From Rhizophagus irregularis (taxonomy: Eukaryota > Glomeromycota > Glomeromycetes > Glomerales > Glomeraceae): a stretch of 64,000 bases of DNA. The stretch is from the NCBI RefSeq assembly GCF_026210795.1, contig NC_089459.1, positions 2,418,001 to 2,482,000 on the forward strand, written 5' to 3'. Positions 16,208-62,791 of this stretch are shown one piece after another. A program made the translations under genes and the position numbers. A model generated the notes under the pieces. It searched no databases. It saw nothing but the letters and a program-made list of their open reading frames with translations, and was not told the origin of the DNA. Position 1 is the first letter of the stretch. Every line of letters starts with the position of its first letter.

Positions 16208-16877
16208 GTAATGTTGAATCAATTGCAAAAAGAGACTTTATTATTGCATTTTTAAAATTGGGGAAATTACGAATGTTTCTGTGTTAACAAGTTCAATATG
16301 TTATTGCATAAAGGACTTTATTATTGAATTTTTGAAATTTGAGAAAATTACGAATGTTTCTGTGATAAACAAGTTCAGTAATGTTTAAATCAATTGCAAA
16401 AAGGGACGAATTTTTGAATTTGGGAAAAATAACAAAATGTTTCTGTGATAAACAAGTTCAGTAATGTTTGAATCAATTGCAAAAAGGGACGAATTTTCGA
16501 AATTTGGGAAAAATAACAAAATATTTCTGTGATAAACTAGTTCAGTAATGTTTGAATCAATTGCAAAAAGGGACGAATTTTCGAAATTTGGGAAAAATAA
16601 CAAAATATTTCTGTGATAAACTAGTTCAGTAATGTTTGAATCAATTGCAAAAAGGGACGAATTTTCGAAATTTGGGAAAAATAACAAAATATTTCTGTGA
16701 TAAACTAGTTCAGTAATGTTTGAATCAATTGCAAAAAGGGACGAATTTTTGAAATTTGGGAAAAGTAACAAAATGTTTCTGTGATAAACTAGTTCAGTAA
16801 TGTTTGAATCAATTGCAAAAAGGGACGAATTTTCGAAATTTGGGAAAAATAACAAAATATTTCTGTGATAAACAAGT
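16208..16877. repeat. 84-bp minisatellite, ~8 copies
   Basis: The core AATCAATTGCAAAAAGGGAC recurs at 16388, 16471, 16555, 16639, 16723 and 16807, spacing 83-84 bp; two more diverged units lie at about 16217 and 16300. The inner copies are nearly identical, pointing to recent expansion or homogenisation. As 84 is a multiple of three, the minus strand stays open for 156 codons (16385-16855) with a 28-residue period containing SSLFAIDSNITELVYHRN. There is no splice or start context for a gene and the outer copies break the frame, so I treat it as a satellite. Confidence 0.92.
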
Positions 16878-17113
16878 AAGATGGTTAATTAATTAGGGCA
16901 GATAATTGAGTGTCAACCAGTTAATACTATAAAGAAATTACATGCAATTTGACTCACGAATTATTAAAGATTTAGTTATCCAATCATCACGGTACCCAAG
17001 CATAACGGTACTATACGTTCAACAAACACGACCTTTCCAAAACATTTATAAATCATTTTAACCTAAAGAGCAAAAAATTAAAAAGAATAAATAAAATCAA
17101 TAAAAAGTTGGGT

Positions 17114-18670: not shown

Positions 18671-20281
18671 TTTTCCCAATCCAATAACTATGATGGGATC
18701 AGAATCATCAGATAATATATTATTCTTTTTAGTTTAAGATATATATAAAGTGACTTTTTAATAGTAACACCATGAAAAAATGTATTTAATTGGATGCGTA
18801 AAGAGTTACTGAAGTAAAAAAAATATAAGATAATTTTTTTTTTTGAAAAAAAAGAACTTTCGTAAAATGAAAGAAACAGAAAAAAAATCTCTAATTATAT
18901 ATATATATAATAATTATATAATATTTCTAGAAATGTTGTAAGCAATAGTTTGTATTTATCCGGAAATTTTTCATATGAATTAAAATGGTAAAATGATTGT
19001 CCTATCAATAAAGGGTAAAAAGGCACGACTAATCATAAATAATGTGCTACTACATAAATAAAGTTTGAAATGTTTGGAATGTCTTTAAATAATAATGTCT
19101 ATTATGAAAATTTTTGATTACTTTAATTAAAAATAATAATTAGTAATCATTAGTTTATTTCCTTTTTCTTCTAAAATGGTAATGTTTTTACTGTATTATT
19201 TAAATTAAAACTTTATTTAGACATTACAAAATTTAACTTTACATTTTTTCCTTAAATTATGATATTCATGAAAAAAAAAAAAATTTTAAAGTTCATAATT
19301 AGCACAAAAAAGGGATTGAATTATTGAACAAGATCTGACCATGTGAAAAATTTCTAGATTATTATTCATTGTCCCCGGATATATTGTGTACTATAAAACT
19401 ATAAGACATCGGCCGTACGAATCATTTACCGAAGAATTTTTATATGACCATCTCTCGCTATTTAAATGATCGGATTTACTTTTTTTCCAGATAAAAGATT
19501 CGATAAATCTTTTTTTCTTATTTATAATGGAAAAATGGAAACAATGTCAAAAAAAAAAAAAAATTGCGTAAATAAAACAAAATAATAATAGAAGATAGTG
19601 TGTATTTTTTTGATCTCATGTTTTTTTGTGTAATTAAATGATTTACAATGCATGCTGAAGGAAGGGGATTAGGGGGGATGTTTTTGTGTGCAACCTAGTG
19701 GGGAAGAAAAATTAATGATTTGCTTTCTTTGTTGTTTGATAAGGATAAGTGGGAATAGAGAATAATTATTTATTACAATCTTTTTTTTTTTTACTTTCAA
19801 TTTCAACTTTATTTAATTTTTTATAGTAGATTGTTTTATAATTTTATTAAATCGTAATACCTAATACGTATGAGGAAGCCCATTAACAATTGGTGTAACA
19901 CAAAAAAAGGGACCTCTAATCTGTTTGTTTGTTTTTAAAATGAAAAATTAACAAAGCGATTTCTGTCAAAAATTAAGGATAGAGTTATCCCATTAGGAAA
20001 TTTTATGAAAGACAAAATGAACGATTGGATGTGATTTATGTTACACGAAATCATTCAGAATAATCCTTTCAAAATTGTAATTTAATTTGGTTAAACAACT
20101 AATATATATATGGATTCCTCGATTACATTACATTATCAATTAAGATTAACATTGTAAATCAGATATTCTTTCATTTATTTTAGGATTTATATATAATGAA
20201 CGCTTTTTGAAAGAGATTTCTTTTTCAATAATCATCATTTTTTCTTTGATCCATTCGACCTATTAAGCAAGGATAGTAAAG

Positions 20282-21262
20282 ATGGAAAGTCAAAGTCAAA
20301 TTAATCAAGAAAACCCTTTACAAAATGAATGTTTTTTACATTATTTGATACATAACAATGTGCCCTGTGATTTCAATAGACTTCATATTGATCCTTCGTA
20401 CGCTCAAGCCTTGTATGGTGATTACTTTAATCATTTAATTTTCGAATACTTCAGACCAAAATTTCCGCCATTCATAAACGTGGAGGAATATGTCTCCGAA
20501 AATGAAAAAAATAAGAAAATCAAAGACATGAGTAAAATGAACAAAGGGAATGGTTTTATGGTTTACCGAAAAATACTCAATAAACATCTGGAAATATTAG
20601 GAGAACGTATTACTATGCAGCAACTTTCTCCTCTAGCTGGATCATTATGGGGTAGTGAACCAGACCAAGTAAAAGAGTTCTATAAAGAACTTTCAGAAAA
20701 GATAAAAAAAGTACATAATGATCGAGTAGAGAGCTATATAAAAAACAATCGTAATGAAAACATGAGCCGTAAAACAATTAAGGATATGACTACAAAGAAT
20801 GGAGGAAATGGCTTTATTATTTTTAGAAAACAACTTAATGAACTTTTAAGATCATTAGGATACAACTTTAGTATGCAGGAACACTCAAAGATTGCTAGCT
20901 ATCTTTGGAGTATACAACCAAAAGAAGTGAAAAGTCATTTTAAAGAACTTTCGGGTCAATTTAAGAAAACACTTAATGATCAATTAAAGCAAATGTTTTG
21001 TAAATCAGACAATGATAATAATGAACCAATCATTGATAACGACTCCTTGAATATAAAATCAAATAATGATGACAATGGATTGATCATGAGTTATATAAAA
21101 CTAGACAATGATGCGTCCACAAATGATGTTCACGATTCCTGCTGGACGGGAGAATCAAAACCATATGGATCGTTCACAAATGACTTCAATAATTACCTGA
21201 AATTGGGACCAGAATCAATCGTTGAAAATTCAATCGAAGAGAATTTTTTTTTGACTCAATAA
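20282..21262 (+). CDS. MATA-HMG-type protein with two HMG boxes
   Basis: Intronless, 326 residues. Two HMG boxes of the fungal mating-type alpha/MATA-HMG style lie in tandem: about 89-147 (GNGFMVYRKILNKHLEIL ... SLWGSEPDQVKEFYKELSEK) and about 175-233 (GNGFIIFRKQLNELLRSL ... YLWSIQPKEVKSHFKELSGQ). Flanking residues repeat as well, beginning with KDM at 81 and 167, so the unit is an 86-residue (258-bp) internal duplication, now diverged. HMG boxes bind and bend DNA; relatives include mating-type regulators, and this subfamily is expanded in Glomeromycotina, where most members have one box and unknown roles. An N-terminal region (about 18-70) precedes the boxes; the tail (240-326) is Asp/Asn/Ser-rich. 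The start is the first in-frame ATG. A nuclear DNA-binding role is inferred from family. Confidence 0.9.
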   Translation: MESQSQINQENPLQNECFLHYLIHNNVPCDFNRLHIDPSYAQALYGDYFNHLIFEYFRPKFPPFINVEEYVSENEKNKKIKDMSKMNKGNGFMVYRKILNKHLEILGERITMQQLSPLAGSLWGSEPDQVKEFYKELSEKIKKVHNDRVESYIKNNRNENMSRKTIKDMTTKNGGNGFIIFRKQLNELLRSLGYNFSMQEHSKIASYLWSIQPKEVKSHFKELSGQFKKTLNDQLKQMFCKSDNDNNEPIIDNDSLNIKSNNDDNGLIMSYIKLDNDASTNDVHDSCWTGESKPYGSFTNDFNNYLKLGPESIVENSIEENFFLTQ

Positions 21263-29407: not shown

Positions 29408-30751
29408 TTATTGGAGGTATTGACCCGATGTATCAAGACTATTACCATTGTGGCTCACAGAACCACCTATGTAAGGAAATTCAAATCCAAGCATTTCGGT
29501 GAATGAACCATTGTTCGCATAATATTGAACAGTAGAAGCAGGATTCGAAGATGGGACGGTTGCTGTTGGAGTGATGTGATGATGTTGCTCGTGATGAAGC
29601 ATCATCTCAGCAAGCATTTGCTGTTGTTGCTGTTCAACATCAGGAACGAAACAGAAATCCAATTGTTCAACCGTTTGATTAGAAGCGTTATAATGTGTTA
29701 AGGGAATGGGCTGGAAGGAGAAATGTTGAGCATTTCCCTGATGATGATGATGTTGTTGTTGTTGCTGTTGCTGCTGTTGTTGTTGTTGTTGATGATAAGT
29801 TAATTCATGCAATAACTTATAATCGTGATCATTTTCAGGAGGGGTAAGAGGGGTTATCGGAGTTATAGGATTAGAATTAATGAATTCTCCGGGATTTTCT
29901 GTAAAATGAGCTGACAACAAGGGAATCTCAGGACTAGGAAGTATTGTGGCATATGTACTTGAAGTATTATTATTATTAGAATTTTGTTGATTGAATCCAG
30001 CCATTCCGTTCATTGATAAAGGTAAGTCCAATTTAGTAGGTGGTTTACTGTTAACATTCTTTGTTGATCTTCTTCTAACGGGTCCTGGGTTTGTTGGTTT
30101 ATTTTCAACCAAATTATTATTATTGCTATTATTGTTATTATTATTTGATGAATTTGTTGAATCTTTAGTACTTTGTTTTCTTTGTTGCCTTCTTTTATCA
30201 ACTTTGGACTTATTTTTATTAGGACGGTAAACATAATTTGGATAAGTTTGCATATGTTCCAATTTTTTTCGATCGGCGTATCTTTCCCATTCTAATCGAA
30301 TTTCTTCAGGTTCTTTTCTCCACATATCACTTATTGTTCTTGATACTTCAGCATTGGTTAAATTTCTTTGAGATGCGATGATACCAGGTTGTTTTGCTCT
30401 TCTATAAAGGATAAAAGCATTTGGAGGTCTTGGAGTTCTTTTTGCAGGTTGAGATTTTGAATTTGCATCACCATCTATTACATTTGAAGTATCAAGATTT
30501 TCTTGATTTATTAAGTCACCACCGGCAGCGGCACCAGCTGCGAGAGCGCGACTTGAAGCTGTAAATTCACCGAAACCGTCTTGCATAACGAATTGATGGT
30601 CATTCATCATGATTCTAGATGATTCATAAGTCGATGAGGAAGGGTCAACGTCCCTCATTGACATATTATTAATGGTAATATCATTGTTCCTCGATGGTGT
30701 TGGAGGGAACATCAAGAGTCCACAATATTTCCTTCTCGCTTCCACGTCCAT
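29408..30751 (-). CDS. HMG-box transcription factor (Ste11/Sox-type box)
   Basis: Intronless, 447 residues from MDVEARRKYC. A canonical sequence-specific HMG box lies at about 105-176: RTPRPPNAFILYRRAKQPGI, then NAEVSRTISDMWRKEP, ending in MQTYPNYVYRPNKNK, like the YPDYKYRP end of Sox and Ste11 boxes; a basic stretch follows (KVDKRRQQRKQ). Such boxes bend DNA in the minor groove; fungal members control mating, development or hypoxia genes. The rest is disordered, with Asn tracts, SP/TP-rich segments (for example NPITPITPLTPPEN), a Gln/His run encoded near 29744-29796, and a second Gln run. The frame stays open 44 codons upstream, but these are Phe/Lys-only translation of homopolymer leader, so MDVEARR is preferred. 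A nuclear regulator; targets unknown. Confidence 0.92.
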   Translation of the reverse strand: MDVEARRKYCGLLMFPPTPSRNNDITINNMSMRDVDPSSSTYESSRIMMNDHQFVMQDGFGEFTASSRALAAGAAAGGDLINQENLDTSNVIDGDANSKSQPAKRTPRPPNAFILYRRAKQPGIIASQRNLTNAEVSRTISDMWRKEPEEIRLEWERYADRKKLEHMQTYPNYVYRPNKNKSKVDKRRQQRKQSTKDSTNSSNNNNNNSNNNNLVENKPTNPGPVRRRSTKNVNSKPPTKLDLPLSMNGMAGFNQQNSNNNNTSSTYATILPSPEIPLLSAHFTENPGEFINSNPITPITPLTPPENDHDYKLLHELTYHQQQQQQQQQQQQQHHHHQGNAQHFSFQPIPLTHYNASNQTVEQLDFCFVPDVEQQQQQMLAEMMLHHEQHHHITPTATVPSSNPASTVQYYANNGSFTEMLGFEFPYIGGSVSHNGNSLDTSGQYLQ

Positions 30752-33700
30752 TTTTTTTATGAAAAAAAAGTTTTTTTTAAAGAGAAAAAAAAAATATAAA
30801 TTACAAAAAAAAGAATGTAAAAAAAATAAAATAAAATAAAATAAAAACTTTTTGGTAAAAAAAAAAAATATCAGTAAACTCAAAATGGAGTAATTTGGAC
30901 GGTATAATTCTCCACCAGAATTTACTAATTTTTATTAAGGTAATGGGTGTTTGTCCTTGGCAAACAGGGTTGTTTTATTTTGTTCTCTGAAAAATAAAAG
31001 AATATTTAAGTGAGTGTGTCCCGTCCCAAATGAAAGACTGGTTGAAGTTGAAGTTTTGAAGTTTTTTGATTAAAAAAATATGTAAGAAAAGAAGGGACCT
31101 TTTTATATAATAAATAATGTTACACACCAAGAGCAATAAAGTATATATGTTATTTTAAAATGCAAATCGTTTATAAAAAAAAAAATTTTTTTTTTTTAAT
31201 ACTTAGTTACACATTTTTCTACTTTAAAATATTATATATATATTTGATATAATGGTATATAATTATGCCAATCCATATATGTTCATCAAAAGAATTTTAG
31301 AGTAATAAAAAGTTTTTTTTATTTGCTGTATATAAATGTGATAAAACAGAAGGTAGTGCGAAAAATAATCATGCTATTGACTTAAAAGTAATAATTATTT
31401 ACGTAATCCACAGGAAAGTAGAACGGTTATATATAAAAAATTATTAAATTAATTTTTTTATTTTTTTTTTAAAAAAAAAAAAAAAATTTGGAGGAAAGTA
31501 AGAAAATTTTATTCATATAGAATATATAGAAACAATTATAATTTGATTTTTATATTATTTCATCGAGAAATATAAATAAATTTTTTTTTTTAGGTAAAAT
31601 AAAATTTGATCTTCAATTTTTTACTAAAATTTTCAATATATATATATAACAACAATTACAATTTATTCCTATTGATTCCAAAGTAGTGTGACAACAATCA
31701 TGTATCAGAAATTATTGTTATATTTTAAAATAAAAATTTATATTGTGATTTTGAAGTGATATATGAATATTGAATATGAAAAAAAAGGGTCCCCATTTTT
31801 TTTTTTTGCTACGCCGTAAATTACATTAAAACATATAATAGATTTTTTGAAATATAATAAATATATGTAAAATATGTGACAATAATGACTAATTCTAAGT
31901 TATTTAAATATTGTTTAAGCATCACGTGGAATTCATTTTAAAGTTTTAAATATATTGTTAAGAATAAAAAAACGCGAAATGACTCACTTACTTTTATTTA
32001 TTTATTATCATCAGTTTCTTTCTATTCATAATCTTCCTTCTTTTACTTATTAAGTATACGCGAGAGAAAAAACGGTTCCAACTAACTTATAATTGAACTC
32101 CGGATGTTTCCATTTTTTCATTCTATCTAAAAATTTATAATTGTCTTCTATACAATTAATTATATACAATAATATTTTATATATATATTTAATATTATAT
32201 ATACATACACATATATATATATTTATTTATTTATTTTATCTAAATAACAATACAATATAAATTAATATAGAGTGAATTGCGGGTATTGTAACGGATATTG
32301 TACTCCCTTAAAATCAACCCACACTTTCTTATCAAGTACATATCGGGTGTAAGTTTTTTCATTCATAACGCAGCAATTCAACCGTTTTCTTGGCGCTTCT
32401 TTTAAATTATTTATAGTTAATTATTAATAAATAATTATATTATTACCAATTAAGTATTTTTTTTTTATCCCTTGTTTAAAAAAAAAATAAATAAAAAGTT
32501 TGATTGATGATTGATACTCCGGCATTTTAAGGGTTACAACGAGATCGCATTTATTAAATCATTTGTTAAAATTAGTAATAATAAAATCGGACCCAATCCA
32601 TTAAGTAAAGAGAAATTCTACTCTTAACTTTAATTTTTAGGGCTAAAAATCCTTTTTCCCTTCATATATTCTATTTTTCTTTGTCTCAAATAAAAAATTC
32701 TAATGGAGCTAGAAGAGGAATTAAAAATCGGAACAGAAACCGAAGTAATTGAGTAATTGTGGCGGAAAAAGTATTAATTTGGTATGATTCGATGTAACGC
32801 CACACAATCACCCATGATAAACAGGAGTTGATTTCTTTAAACAATGGGTCGTTATACAAATTTCACAGCCATAAAATCCGGTTTTAATCTTGTTTTGTAA
32901 AATTTTCCTTATCAGCCACATTCTAACATGGGAATATACTTATGTTCATCCTTTTGGGATTTATAGAATCCCCCCTCAATGAGTAAAAAGCCGATTATAA
33001 ATTTTTTTTTTTAAAAAAAAAAAAAAAAAATTATAATTTTTTTTTTATTTCAATCGAAAATACGTTCCAATATTCTTTCTTGTGTAAAAGAATATTTTCC
33101 TAATTGGTAAAATTTTCTTTGTGTATGTGTTCTGAATAAGCTTTTTTTTTCCCCTTGAAACGTTTGATCATTGTTTCCGTACCTCCACTATGAGAAAACT
33201 ATTTTAAAGAAACCTAGTAAAAAATTATTATTATTATTTTTTTTTTATTATTTATTTTTATTCGACAAGTCACATGTTAAGAATTATTGGACCAGTTATC
33301 TATTAATTTTTGAAACTCTTAACCCTTTTGTTTATTATTTATCGTCCCTGTCTCTCAAAAAAATACGAAATGGCCAAGATAATCAGGTGATAATTGAACC
33401 CTTGTCGTAATATTGATTTTCATAATCATGACGTCTTACAAGGTACTTAAGTTCGATATTATTTTATTTTTGTACAATGAACTTATTGTTTCGACATTAT
33501 TCCGGGCTTAAATGTACAGTCAATCATTTTTACTATGACAAATCATTTTATCATTGGTTTATTACCAAATAATATATGAAATTAAATCGATTTAATCATT
33601 AATCAATCAGGAATTTTCAAACATTTCCCGTTCCAAAAAATTCACACAATACGATAATTATTATACATTGTAATAAAATCGTTGTAATTTTCGCATGTAA

Positions 33701-56555: not shown

Positions 56556-57650
56556 TCAAACTTGTGATTCAGATCCATCAACGGAAGTATAACCGTTTCC
56601 GTTAACATTATTAGCAGGAGTATAATCATAACCATACCCATCATCTTTTTCCTTATTATTTGAAGGTATTTCTTTTTTTGGATCAGGTTTACTATACACA
56701 TATGTTGCAATTAAAACAAGTGTAGCCCCCATCAAAAATGTTGAAGTAACAATAAAATTAAAGAGATAAACTGATGCGAGGAAGCTAAGAATAATTGAGA
56801 TTGATGTAGCAAATCCCTTAAGAATATTGTCTGCATATTTTACGACCATGGCAACAATAATACCACCAATAGCTTGACAGGCGATTGCTCCTAGAACTAC
56901 ATAATTGTAATTATAAAAGAACCCATTTTTCCAAACTCCTGCCCCATCTTTCCACCAAACTCCCATAATTAAAGCCGGGAAAAGTGAAAAGAATGAAAGT
57001 TGAACATTTCGAATCCATACGGAAGCTTTAGAATTTTTAAGAACTTTTTCAAAATATACACCAGCGATACCAGAAATTACGCAAGCTACAGCCACAGCCC
57101 CTAAACCCACAATTTTTTCCATGGTCGCATCATCATCCTCATTTGAATTTACATGATCGCTACTTGGCATTTGAACAAGTGCAACACCAAAAGTGAGTAA
57201 GACTAAAGAAAACCATTTCATTCCGCTTAAAGAAGTTTTGAGCATAATGACAGAACATAAAGCTGTTGTCAAGATTTTTAATTGATAAGTAACTTGAAAG
57301 GTAGCAGCATCCAACATGCTTACGGCAACATATTGTAAATTATTTTGAATAGTGTAAAGAGCTGCTGGAATCATTAATTTCCATGCGTCAGGTGCAAAAA
57401 TTTGAGAATAGAGTTCTTGAATACTAAGTCGTCCAGTCTCACGCACTTGATTTCGTCCAGCGACATAGAGACAGATAATGAGCTTAATTAGCTCTGATAA
57501 AAATACGGCAGTTGAAGTATAATATAAATTCTCTTTATCAAGTCGAGAGTAACGCATTACGATTACTAGCGTACTATTTTGAATGCAAAGTGTGACCAAA
57601 CTGACATACTTTAAAGGTATGCCGAGAATAGTTGCGTCAGCTGCCATCAT
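56556..57650 (-). CDS. nucleotide-sugar (UDP-galactose-type) transporter
   Basis: Single exon, 364 residues from MMAADATILG; the next codon is also Met. It is a multi-pass Golgi antiporter of the SLC35A family, part of the drug/metabolite transporter superfamily, moving UDP-sugar into the Golgi lumen in exchange for UMP. Family signatures are seen: QNSTLVIVMRYSRL near the start, LYTIQNNLQYVAVSMLDAAT then FQVTYQLKILTTALCSVIML, GVYFEKVLKNSKASVWIRNVQLSFF, and GGIIVAMVVKYADNILKGFA then TSISIILSF. About ten hydrophobic segments can be counted. A hydrophilic Asp/Asn/Gly-rich tail (about 330-364) follows. The open frame runs 28 codons further upstream, but that part (FFLFQKKNNIF) looks like leader. 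UDP-galactose versus UDP-GlcNAc or CMP-sialic acid cannot be fixed from sequence; the set resembles UDP-galactose transporters (Gms1/SLC35A2). Confidence 0.94.
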   Translation of the reverse strand: MMAADATILGIPLKYVSLVTLCIQNSTLVIVMRYSRLDKENLYYTSTAVFLSELIKLIICLYVAGRNQVRETGRLSIQELYSQIFAPDAWKLMIPAALYTIQNNLQYVAVSMLDAATFQVTYQLKILTTALCSVIMLKTSLSGMKWFSLVLLTFGVALVQMPSSDHVNSNEDDDATMEKIVGLGAVAVACVISGIAGVYFEKVLKNSKASVWIRNVQLSFFSLFPALIMGVWWKDGAGVWKNGFFYNYNYVVLGAIACQAIGGIIVAMVVKYADNILKGFATSISIILSFLASVYLFNFIVTSTFLMGATLVLIATYVYSKPDPKKEIPSNNKEKDDGYGYDYTPANNVNGNGYTSVDGSESQV

Positions 57651-58628
57651 AAAGATATTATTTTTTTTTTGAAATAGGAAAAAAACTCGAGATGACCAAG
57701 GGCTTATAATTGTGAGTAAAGGGTTGCAGAGCAAGTTACGAACTATGGAAAAAATATTTATAATATGATTTAACTAAATAAAAATTATAAATAGAATAAA
57801 AATAAACAAATACGCTATAAAGAAGGTCCTTTGAATCTTTAAAAAGGGTTACTTCAACCTATAACAATTTGGAAGGAGATAATTATGCTATGATTTTGAT
57901 GCAGTGCAACTATAAAAACGACGAAATTTAATGATATCTTCCGACTATGGCGAAACTATATTTAGTAAGGATCCTCGCCAAAACTTTATAATTTTTAAAT
58001 TAATCTGTGATTTTACGACTGGTTTTTCGTATTATGAATTAGTCTTCGATTGAAGTGAAATTCATGCGGTTTTATTGAGACGTTGGACGAGATGATTATC
58101 CGCGTTTAAATCGTCGACTAAATAATATATTCCGGAAGTTACTATTTAAAGTATTCAAAAATAAAAGAATAGAAATTTTACAGGGATTAAACCTTAATTG
58201 ATCTATATTTAGAATATGTATGCCATAATTCGATTGTCTCAATGACAAACGGTTTTTAAACACAGTTGTTATATTTTTAGTAAGGAGATAACACTCCGTA
58301 TGTGATAGGATCATTGGATTAATTTACCCGTTGTTTATCGCGAATCTAATAAATCTAATGGAACACAAACGATCGAGATCAATAGATGGTTGACATGTCT
58401 TGGCAAAATTAGAGAACGTAGCAAATGACAGTGGTGTAAACAAATAGTATCTTGTGTCTTGTCCTACTTTTTATTATTATTACAAAAATAGGTACTTGTG
58501 CTTCCTTGTAAAAAGCGTGTTGTTTTTCCATTTTAGAAATGTACGAGTCGATATTGCATTGGCTGATTATCATTTTGAAATTTCATTTCGTTGATTTCGT
58601 TATGATACCGTTTTTTAGAAATTTCATA
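57651..58628. promoter_or_regulatory. divergent intergenic region
   Basis: About 980 bases between the divergent transporter (-) and oxidoreductase (+) start codons, so it should hold both promoters. A possible TATA-like CTATAAAAACG lies near 57911. In-frame codons upstream of both chosen starts (57734-57651 and 58539-58628) are open, so longer N-termini cannot be excluded. No RNA gene was seen. Confidence 0.5.
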
Positions 58629-61268
58629 ATGTCCAAAGCTAGCGCCGTTAAAATTGTCCCACAAAAGCATATCGATGAAGGAACTTCATTTGCCAGTACA
58701 TTAAAAGCTCTAGAAGATCCCATACCTTCTCTTCCAGCTAAACCAATTACTATTTCTATCGTTGGTGCTGGTCAGAGGTTTGTTAATTTTACGAGCCAAG
58801 AATCTTTTCAAACAAAAACCAACGATAATTACCGAATCTTATTTCTTATATTATCAGAGGTTGCGGATACGCATTTTATGCTAAAATGAATCCACAATTG
58901 GCTAAGGTTGTTGCTGTTGCTGAACCGCGTGAAAGTCGCAGGAAAAAAATGCAAGAGGTTTTGGTTTAATTACTAATGTTGTACGAATTTAAAAATTTTT
59001 TTTTTGATTTAAATTTGCTTTTTATTAGACATATAATATTCCTGACGAAAATGTATTTAGCGATTGGAAAGAAGTATGTAATTTTTATTACTTTTAAATA
59101 AACAACTTCAACAAATTAATTTAAAATCCTGAATTATTTTAGCTCGCAAAACGTCCTAAGATAAGTGACGCGATTGTAATTGCAACTTTGGATCATCTCC
59201 ATATGGAACCCGCAATCGCATTTGCAGATTTAAAATATCATATTTTACTAGAAAAGCCAATGTCCGTCAATCTTGATGAATGCAAAAAAATTACCGATGC
59301 TGCAATCAGAAACAAAGTAAGGAATTACTGAAATTGGATTCTTTTATACATTACTATTTTAATTAACAAACCAAAAAATTTAATTAGATCGTGTTCTTAG
59401 TAGGTTTGTATTTTTTTCCAGATCAAGCAGATTTTCCGTTTAATAGGCAGATCGAATTTTATTAGATCATATGATTTTAATCAAACTCAAACGTCATTTA
59501 TTTCAGGACACGTGTTAAGATACACTCCACATAATCGGCTTATTAAAAGAATTATCGATTCAGGGTTGTTGGGAAATATTATTAATATTCAACACTTGGA
59601 ACCGGTTGGTAATTGGCATTTTGCACACTCGGTGAGTAGAAAGTTAGTTGTTTTATGGTTCAGTAAATGTTTCATACTTTTAATGAAAACATTCTTTTAA
59701 TTCAAAGTATGTAAGAGGCAATTGGAGAAAAGAACAAGATTCTTGCTTTTCCCTAATGACAAAGGTATGTTTAAATGCAGTTAATATAATTACGATCATT
59801 TCTCGTATTAACTTTTGATTATAATTTATTAAAAGTGTTGTCACGATATTGGTAATTAAACACGAATTAATGTATATTATTTCATTTCAAATTAAAATCA
59901 ATTCAAATTAATTAAATTAATTTACAGATTTAATGTTGCATTGGAATGATTCTCCTTGTGTGGTGATTAGACTTTTATTGCTTTTTGAGACGTTTTTTTA
60001 AATTATTTTAAGCTAAAATTATATTTACTTTAGAAAATAAGTTCATTTGGAAACTTATCACATTTTAATTCAAGAAATAAACCTACCGGAGCAGGAGATG
60101 CAAAGTATGTTACGTGAAAACTATGCTTTTTATATATATAAAAATCAAAGTTATAGAAGTTTATCAAATTTTATGTAGACGATGTCTAGATTGTGCATAT
60201 GAACCTTCGTGTGCATATTCTGCGAAGAAGATTTATATCAAGTCATTTGAAAACGGAAATACTCATTGGCCCGTAAGCGTGGTTACAGATGTATTTGGTA
60301 ATATTTTTTTCAAAATAATAAGAATTGACTAACATATTTAGGCACATTATATGCTAAAATATACAATTCCTAAATTTACTATAATAGATATTGAACATTT
60401 GGCTGAAGCATTAAAAACTGGGCCGTATGGTCGATGTGTCTATGAATGTGATAATGATGTTGCGGATCACCAGGTACTAATAAGCGCGACATGACTCGAT
60501 TCAATTTTTTAAATTTTTGCTTTCTATGATAGGTTGTAAATATGGAATTTGCGAGTGGCGCTACAGCAACCGTTACAATGGTTGCTTTTACTGAATCCAT
60601 ATGTGAAAGAAAAGTAAGAATTTAGTATTTATATATTTTTTTTCATAAATAACCTCGAGAATAAAGATTAAAAGTCTCTCTTTTATTTAATAAAAAAAAG
60701 ACTAGGTAAAGGAATCCATTATCAAAATATTGGTGTTCTTATATACGAATTAAAAATAAATTTTACTATATAAAAGGATCTTTGGCTCTCTTGGAGAGAT
60801 AGAATGTGATGGTATGAACACAATAAGCTATTATAATTTCCTAACGAAAAAGAAAGAAATTCTAAACGCTAAAAATATCACTGGTGGTACTGATTTGGGT
60901 GGCCATGGTAAGTTTTATTCTAATTTAATGTAACAATTAGTTTTTAATTAATATGTTAAATATCATTAATAATTACAGGTGGAGGTGACATTGGCTTAAT
61001 GGAAGCATTTCTTTATGCAATTTCATCAAAAGACGAATCTAACAAATTTAATGTTTCAGGAGCTGAAGAAACATTCGGTAATTAGACATCATCATTATTA
61101 TTTATTATCTAAACAAGAAAAGCTCGAAGTAAAATAATTCTATAATTCTGAATATGAATAGATTCCCATTTATATGTGTTTGCCGCGGAACATTCGAGGA
61201 GAATCGGACAAGTTGTTAATATTGAAGATTTTAAACACAATACTGACAAAACCGAAAATGATATTTAA
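58629..61268 (+). CDS. Gfo/Idh/MocA-family NAD(P)-dependent oxidoreductase
   Basis: Seventeen exons, 1416 nt, 471 residues: 58629-58777, 58858-58957, 59029-59073, 59143-59316, 59388-59403, 59507-59631, 59708-59764, 59836-59851, 59928-59962, 60034-60104, 60179-60297, 60388-60473, 60533-60613, 60701-60705, 60777-60907, 60979-61077, 61162-61268. All joins are in frame, including two 16-nt exons and one of 5 nt. The N-terminal Rossmann fold begins [16 protein letters not shown] (41-56); the family motif EKPMS is at 135-139, preceded by [14 protein letters not shown]. The C-terminal half holds [40 protein letters not shown] and [15 protein letters not shown], typical of the large oxidoreductase branch. 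Members oxidise sugars, inositols or related polyols with NAD(P); the substrate here is unknown. Cytosolic by absence of signals. ATG 58629 is preferred; an in-frame ATG at 58539 would add a hydrophobic 30 residues. Confidence 0.93.
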
Positions 61269-61799: not shown

Positions 61800-62791
61800 A
61801 TGTATTCATTCGCTAGCAAAATATATAATAGTGTAGTTGGAAGTTCCGAAGAACAAATTATCGAGGAAAGTACAGAACAAGAAATTACTAAAAATACAAA
61901 AACCACAAACCAAACTATAGAAGAAACCTCCCAAGCTGGACAAACGACCGTAAAAGTTTCGTTGACGACGGAAGAGAATTTAAGTACCGCAAATGTTACC
62001 AAAGAATTTACAGTTCCACTTTCTGTGCCGAAAATGCAAGTGTCTGATTTTAATGGTATGCATAAAATCGAATTTTTGATATTAGTTGTATTATAGTTTC
62101 TAATAAGCTTTCGCCATATTCATAGGTATAATATCCGATGTTGCTCCAACGTTCCCAAGTATTGACAGTCCACAACGTTCCAAAAAACGAACACCTCTGG
62201 AGAAAGCAAACAAACTACGACAAAAGATTGCTTTGGAACCCGGTCATTCCCCATTAGATTGGGCAAAATTAACCAGTAGTGGAGCTAACCTTAGGGTGAT
62301 TTGAAAAGATCTATTTGTAATAAACTGTGAATTAAAGTTAATTTTATGTCTTTATTTGATAGGGAGTTTCAGAAATAAGAAAGTACCCCATTGAAGAAGT
62401 TAGACTTCATAAGACTAAAGATGATGCATGGACAGTATTTAATGGCAAAATTTATAACATTACTCCATATCTCAAATTTCACCCTGGAGGTAAGCTCTAT
62501 GAAAAAAAAGGATAATTATAATTATATATATTATTAATAATTTAAAATTTTGCATCATTTCAAAAAGGTGAAAAAGAGTTAATGAGATCTGCTGGTAAAG
62601 ATGGGACCAAATTATTTAGTAAGTTAGATTTAATACTGAATAATATCCCTAAAATAATCTTATTTAATTCTCTTTTTTTTTCCTTTTCCTTTTCCTTAGT
62701 GACAACACACGCATGGGTAAATTATGAGTTCATGTTGGAAAAATGTTTTGTCGGTTTTCTAGTTGGAGAACAGCATAATTTATTAACTTAA
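61800..62791 (+). CDS. cytochrome b5-domain protein (Irc21/CYB5R4-N-like)
   Basis: Five exons: 61800-62055, 62126-62295, 62363-62489, 62568-62618, 62700-62791; 696 nt, 231 residues. The C-terminal ~85 residues form a cytochrome b5 heme-binding domain: DDAWTVFNGKIYNITPYLKF, then HPGG (His about 182) and ELMRSAGKDGTKLF with the second ligand in THAWVNYE (His about 205). HAWVNYEFMLEKCFVG closely follows the b5 domain of human CYB5R4 (Ncb5or) and yeast Irc21, rather than classical microsomal b5. There is no C-terminal membrane anchor, so a soluble electron carrier is inferred; the redox partner is unknown. The first ~85 residues are Thr/Glu/Ser-rich and disordered, followed by a basic linker with RSKKRTPLEKANKLRQKI. 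Convergent with the next gene, only 105 bases between stops. Confidence 0.93.

Follow-up and report, generated by a model that had tools for sequence, protein, structure and literature searches.

A probable five-nucleotide coding micro-exon in a Gfo/Idh/MocA-family oxidoreductase gene of an arbuscular mycorrhizal fungus

The pentanucleotide ACTAG at positions 60701–60705 is very probably (with a probability of roughly 0.9) a genuine coding micro-exon of an apparently intact Gfo/Idh/MocA-family oxidoreductase gene of an arbuscular mycorrhizal fungus. The gene is found in the window, the 64,000-nucleotide stretch of DNA analysed here. We infer spliceosomal inclusion of ACTAG, as well as the efficiency of inclusion, from the sequence. 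The gene and the features that bear on this reading are as follows.

58629–61268, plus strand: Gfo/Idh/MocA-family oxidoreductase gene of 17 exons and 471 codons; hand-drawn model, open from ATG to TAA
59388–59403, plus strand: exon 5, 16 nt, encoding IVFLV and the first base of a G codon, within the conserved motif VGHVLRYTP
59836–59851, plus strand: exon 8, 16 nt, encoding CCHDI and the first base of a D codon, within the conserved motif CHDID
60533–60613, plus strand: exon 13, 81 nt, ending ...ICERK in phase 0, with AAA/GTAAGA at its 3′ end
60614–60700, plus strand: intron 13, 87 nt, GTAAGA...AAAAAAAAG
60701–60705, plus strand: putative exon 14, the 5-nt micro-exon ACTAG, encoding Thr359 and two bases of Arg360
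60706–60776, plus strand: intron 14, 71 nt, GTAAAG...TATAAAAG
60777–60907, plus strand: exon 15, 131 nt, with the last base of Arg360 followed by IFGSLGE

The gene model was built by hand with the use of family knowledge, and scoring was done afterwards. The spliced model is 1416 nt in length including the stop codon, and all 16 introns display GT–AG boundaries. At the amino acid level, both the NAD-binding Rossmann domain and the C-terminal alpha/beta domain of the Gfo/Idh/MocA family are detected with Pfam; the matches are to PF01408 (9.8e-21, 75.1 bits with a cut-off of 24), PF22725 (7.8e-10, 39.3 bits with a cut-off of 27) and PF02894 (3e-06, 27.6 bits with a cut-off of 22.9). E-K-P is a motif of Gfo/Idh/MocA oxidoreductases, and E135, K136 and P137 are invariant in an alignment of 13 sequences. 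The protein retains the family residue in 67 of 68 near-invariant columns, and thus the gene gives no indication of decay. None of the nine listed named NCBIfam subfamilies, inositol 2-dehydrogenase for example, reaches its cut-off, the top score being 77.5 bits versus 450. Of 62 matches to solved structures, the 60 listed extend no further than residue 251 of the protein and so stop short of the junction. In a search of the fungus's own genome (146,748,485 bases in 32 contigs), only the present locus matched the gene among the best candidates scored, and no spliced retrocopy was found, the exon 13-14-15 junction being unmatched at up to three mismatches.

The first-pass annotation had placed the end of exon 13 (...ICERK) at 60613 and the start of the next conserved block at 60777, and both coordinates are found in the sequence. 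It had also stated that direct joining of these exons leads to a stop after ten codons; translation confirms this, and a direct join of exon 13 to exon 15 is rejected. The stop likewise leads to rejection of a stwintron, i.e. removal of the whole 163 nt with no exonic bases between the introns. The proposal of ACTAG in front of GTAAAG, with introns of 87 and 71 nt on either side, agrees with both sequence and model, and the context reads AAAAAAAAG / ACTAG / GTAAAG. Exon 15 begins G/ATC TTT GGC, where the G at 60777 closes the Arg360 codon opened by the last two bases of ACTAG, and the Ile codon follows from 60778. The two flanking introns are of normal size for this gene, whose 14 other introns are 59–103 nt in length; 71 nt is the exact length of 6 of the 16 introns, intron 14 among them. 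Read as one intron, the gap of 163 nt would exceed every other intron of the gene. The ACTAG sequence itself is common and is present 55 times on both strands of the window, where 48.3 ± 8.0 copies are expected. The unusual feature is AG-ACTAG-GT at a usable distance with T-R coded in frame, and ACTAG is the sole AG-N5-GT of the gap that leaves introns of at least 40 nt.

Homologues from prokaryote contigs and plasmids share conserved residues and a fixed spacing at the junction. The sample consists of 12 plasmid and 80 prokaryote loci, 86 of which are free of stops and frame problems and make up the aligned rows. The patterns that retrieved the 80 loci represent two other parts of the protein and not the junction, with ranking by the whole spliced protein. 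The closest plasmid match shows 48.7% identity to the oxidoreductase, and identity in the best-matching segment reaches as much as 54% among prokaryote contigs. A scan of genome contigs with the window protein alone produced eight stretches that fitted a pattern and no relatives. Arg357, the last Arg of exon 13, and Gly363 occur in all 86 aligned homologues and, counted inclusively, always span seven residues. Because this spacing is fixed, exactly five bases are wanting between the given exon ends. Thr occupies position 359 in 70/86 homologues; at position 360, 59 have Arg and 13 have Lys (R or K in 72/86). ACTAG yields the commonest family residue at both. Gly366 is also highly conserved (83/86). 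The K-T-R-I-F-G pattern, previously put forward as typical of the family, is seen in aligned rows as RKTRIFGT (4/86), with RQTRIFGT in 11/86. Each of the six excluded rows has a matching segment, with Thr in five and Arg in three, although here the search pattern itself demands the spacing. An unaligned Arg-to-Gly count, which finds a spacing of seven in 71 of the 86 rows and only other spacings in 15, is uninformative because the leftmost Arg is taken.

Competing splice models were enumerated from 11 GT/GC donors and 17 AG acceptors, allowing at most one internal exon and no intron shorter than 35 nt. This gives 1520 splice combinations, of which 141 are open to the final stop, and models were scored against a profile built from the 86 homologues; the alignment behind the first profile included the window protein. 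The model with ACTAG is at the top of the 141 with 584.8 bits, a lead of 8.8 over the next, and has 471 open codons, in keeping with the original proposal that ACTAG restores the frame and supplies Thr-Arg. Ranks 2–4 are occupied by models with internal exons of 31 nt (576.0 bits), 23 nt (570.3 bits) and 29 nt (569.5 bits). The best model with a single intron reaches 555.2 bits, rank 20 of 141, and is 29.6 bits below. When the profile is realigned without the window protein, the first four models score 583.1, 574.3, 568.6 and 567.8 bits, with their order and the 8.8-bit lead unchanged, and the best single intron (553.7 bits, rank 19) is 29.4 bits worse. In a control, the procedure was repeated at every one of the model's 16 junctions, and the model's own junction always comes first; at seven of the 16, an extra exon gives an open rival, and none of these rivals wins. 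Exons 5 (16 nt), 8 (16 nt), 9 (35 nt) and 14 (5 nt) were dropped in turn, and each is regained at rank 1.

Splice sites were scored with leave-one-out weight matrices from the gene's 16 introns, where donors range from 0.32 to 9.76 and acceptors from 0.92 to 7.57. Intron 13 (donor 5.57, acceptor 4.58) and intron 14 (donor 5.03, acceptor 5.66) both lie within these ranges. Rival sites score lower, at −0.61 and −2.52 for the donors at 60602 and 60734, and at 1.65, 2.39 and 1.32 for acceptors with exon starts at 60706, 60675 and 60799. The micro-exon acceptor, AATAAAAAAAAG, is without the pyrimidines typical of most acceptors. An A-rich acceptor is nevertheless unexceptional here, since four of 16 acceptors in the oxidoreductase gene and one of four in the next gene end in AAG. 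With respect to the branch point, the motif matches CTRAY at four of five positions at best in all 16 introns, introns 13 and 14 included, and speaks neither for nor against the micro-exon.

The expectation by chance was estimated by shuffling the gap 20,000 times with dinucleotide composition preserved, for 5-nt exons only and with both known exon ends fixed. If each flanking intron must measure 40 nt or more, 11.2% of shuffles contain any AG-N5-GT, 2.3% contain one whose residues are seen in the family at each of the two positions, and 0.05% contain one that encodes both majority residues (T-R). A minimum intron length of 59 nt lowers these values to 5.8%, 1.2% and 0.04%. Within the gene's 14 other introns, AG-N5-GT is found in one, intron 6, where the five bases are TAAAT and start with an in-frame stop.

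Four other explanations of the junction can be weighed against a coding micro-exon. Very unlikely is an assembly error, by which the sequence near the junction would lack bases or contain surplus ones and the gap would truly be one intron. The junction site is A-rich, and the assembly, provided that it is the one published, is nanopore-based with Q36.27 after polishing (PMC10234402). However, an error of one or two bases in length might repair the frame yet would leave the seven-residue spacing, which needs exactly five bases, unrestored; five bases flanked by AG and GT are already present in the gap; and the implied 163-nt intron would be longer than all others of the gene. The long A run sits in an intron, and its length therefore leaves the frame untouched.

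Less probable still is a single intron of 185 nt, 60614–60798, which has its acceptor within the conserved block.

60797–60798, plus strand: rival acceptor AG of a 185-nt intron, giving K/IECDG in frame with TRIFGSLGE lost

This intron would keep the frame without a micro-exon, by joining ICERK to IECDG in a protein nine residues shorter, and it is the best ranked of the single-intron models. Yet it removes TRIFGSLGE, with Gly363 (86/86) and Gly366 (83/86), scores 29.6 bits worse, depends on an acceptor of only 1.32 and exceeds the 59–103 nt range of the gene's introns. On a par with it in improbability is a larger cryptic exon, either of 31 nt (60675–60705, with the donor after 60602) or of 23 or 29 nt ending at 60734. 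All three versions are open and keep IFGSLGE, and the 31-nt version also keeps T-R, but the 31-, 23- and 29-nt exons insert five, six and eight residues into a spacing that is fixed in 86/86 homologues. In addition, the 31-nt exon drops the invariant Arg357, and the donors used (−0.61 at 60602 and −2.52 at 60734) compare poorly with 5.03 for the micro-exon donor. A decaying pseudogene with a real frameshift, to which the frameshift of the direct exon 13–15 join might point, is hardly credible in view of the remaining junctions, all in frame, the 471 codons without internal stop and the 67/68 near-invariant columns retained.

How a coding exon of five nucleotides might be spliced can be outlined. 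The spliceosome would take out two ordinary short introns, of 87 and 71 nt, successively by intron definition, and the productive mRNA would read ...R-K-T-R-I-F-G.... Because the introns are 60–100 nt in length, pairing of splice sites across introns is the simplest assumption, and since introns would be defined individually, the size of the exon should be of little consequence. Splice sites five bases apart are unlikely to be co-occupied, and therefore sequential removal would be expected. Intron definition is reported for filamentous ascomycetes in work on stwintrons (PMC5639578), the authors of a study on a 1-nt exon in Arabidopsis prefer intron definition with introns removed successively (PMC4674806), and a plant survey regards micro-exons as too small for simultaneous binding of both flanking introns (PMC8831610). 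We infer sequential intron-definition splicing here as well.

A second AG lies at the end of the micro-exon itself.

60704–60705, plus strand: possible competing acceptor AG, abutting the GT of intron 14; its use would lose the five nucleotides

The acceptor score of this AG is 1.65, versus 4.58 for the AG at 60699–60700, five bases upstream. If the competing AG were used, exon 14 would shrink to zero length and a donor would be formed anew, with the same product as skipping and a stop after ten codons. This raises the question of whether the micro-exon functions as an on/off switch, i.e. as a recursive or zero-length-exon site where the choice of acceptor would set the balance of productive versus frameshifted and likely degraded mRNA. 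Such a role is conceivable but unlikely.

The first-pass annotation had regarded five nucleotides as near the lower limit for exons. This does not hold, as the known limit is 1 nt; exons of this size are reported with transcript evidence in Arabidopsis and in a fungus, Fusarium (PMC12940212; PMC4674806). The 1-nt exon of Fusarium CYP621A, which its authors consider to be without precedent among fungal genes, is presented with RNA reads (PMC12940212). It resembles the present case in that the gene is fungal, the neighbouring exons cannot be joined in phase, and a tiny exon flanked by AG and GT in a conserved motif mends the frame. The two differ in exon size, 1 nt versus 5 nt, and in the kind of evidence, as 24 genes share the Fusarium candidate exon and RNA reads come from two species, whereas here there is one gene and the DNA sequence alone (PMC12940212). 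The same source mentions an 8-nt exon in Phanerochaete and exons of 2–5 bases in Arabidopsis, Drosophila and human (PMC12940212). The constitutive 1-nt exon of Arabidopsis APC11 is likewise a coding micro-exon required for the frame, but it belongs to a plant gene, is smaller and was tested with reporter constructs (PMC4674806).

With its 5 nt, the micro-exon falls inside the smallest class (≤15 nt), the same size class as plant micro-exons of ≤15 nt, which are frequently absent from annotation (PMC8831610). The plant set differs from the present single gene in that it comprises 2,398 cases with RNA-seq; rice Os08t0562700 has a 5-nt exon beside a 12-nt exon, checked by RT-PCR (PMC8831610). Trichoderma virens Xlr2 also represents a micro-exon in a filamentous fungus, but there glucose-dependent inclusion switches a regulator, whereas here inclusion is apparently obligatory and the product is an enzyme (PMC11121469). 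Fungal stwintrons share with this locus two close-set introns, consecutive removal and intron definition, but no exon remains between stwintron introns, whereas here five coding bases must stay (PMC5639578). Since 1-nt exons in Arabidopsis and Fusarium and a 5-nt exon in rice have already been reported, the 5-nt exon of this gene belongs to an already documented exon type. Among the matches listed from the open-licence literature, we saw no report of a micro-exon in Rhizophagus or mycorrhizal fungi; one of them, PMC10197012, contains the word microexon once.

The locus would offer an unambiguous example of a coding exon of ultra-small size, within a gene that already has two 16-nt exons, and the host is probably the reference arbuscular mycorrhizal fungus. 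Automatic gene annotation is prone to overlook such exons, and missed micro-exons may be common in the host genome. If they are general there, the gene models of such intron-rich genomes would carry false frameshifts, truncated proteins or false pseudogenes at each one overlooked. The gene may also serve to examine sequential intron-definition splicing in a lineage that diverged early among fungi.

In the prokaryote-genome and plasmid collections scanned, the nearest relatives found for the oxidoreductase are prokaryotic, at approximately 50% identity, despite the 16 introns of the gene. Its origin could be either an old horizontal transfer or vertical descent. Seven of the 12 plasmid loci fetched are annotated, and four of these (L015, L016, L020 and L021) adjoin a sugar-related gene; the neighbours are a carbohydrate ABC transporter permease, an alpha- or beta-galactosidase and a family 4 glycosyl hydrolase. 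Because homologues adjoin carbohydrate transporter and glycosidase genes, a sugar or glycoside might be guessed as the substrate of the oxidoreductase.

Several other features are present in the window. The gene downstream of the oxidoreductase, at 61800–62791 on the same strand, has an in-frame model of five exons, and one of its four acceptors is AAAAAG. The second half of its product resembles a cytochrome b5-type haem-binding domain. A long open frame at 56556–57773 on the minus strand matches the nucleotide-sugar transporter family PF04142 (1.7e-114). Two open frames with an HMG-box (PF00505) are found, one at 29408–30931 on the minus strand (5.2e-15) and one at 20267–21262 on the plus strand (6.1e-11); the latter is also weakly similar to the MAT alpha HMG box. 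At 16326–16877, an 84-bp unit is repeated in tandem (6.6 copies, 96% matches) and overlaps a repetitive open frame at 16385–16888 on the minus strand.
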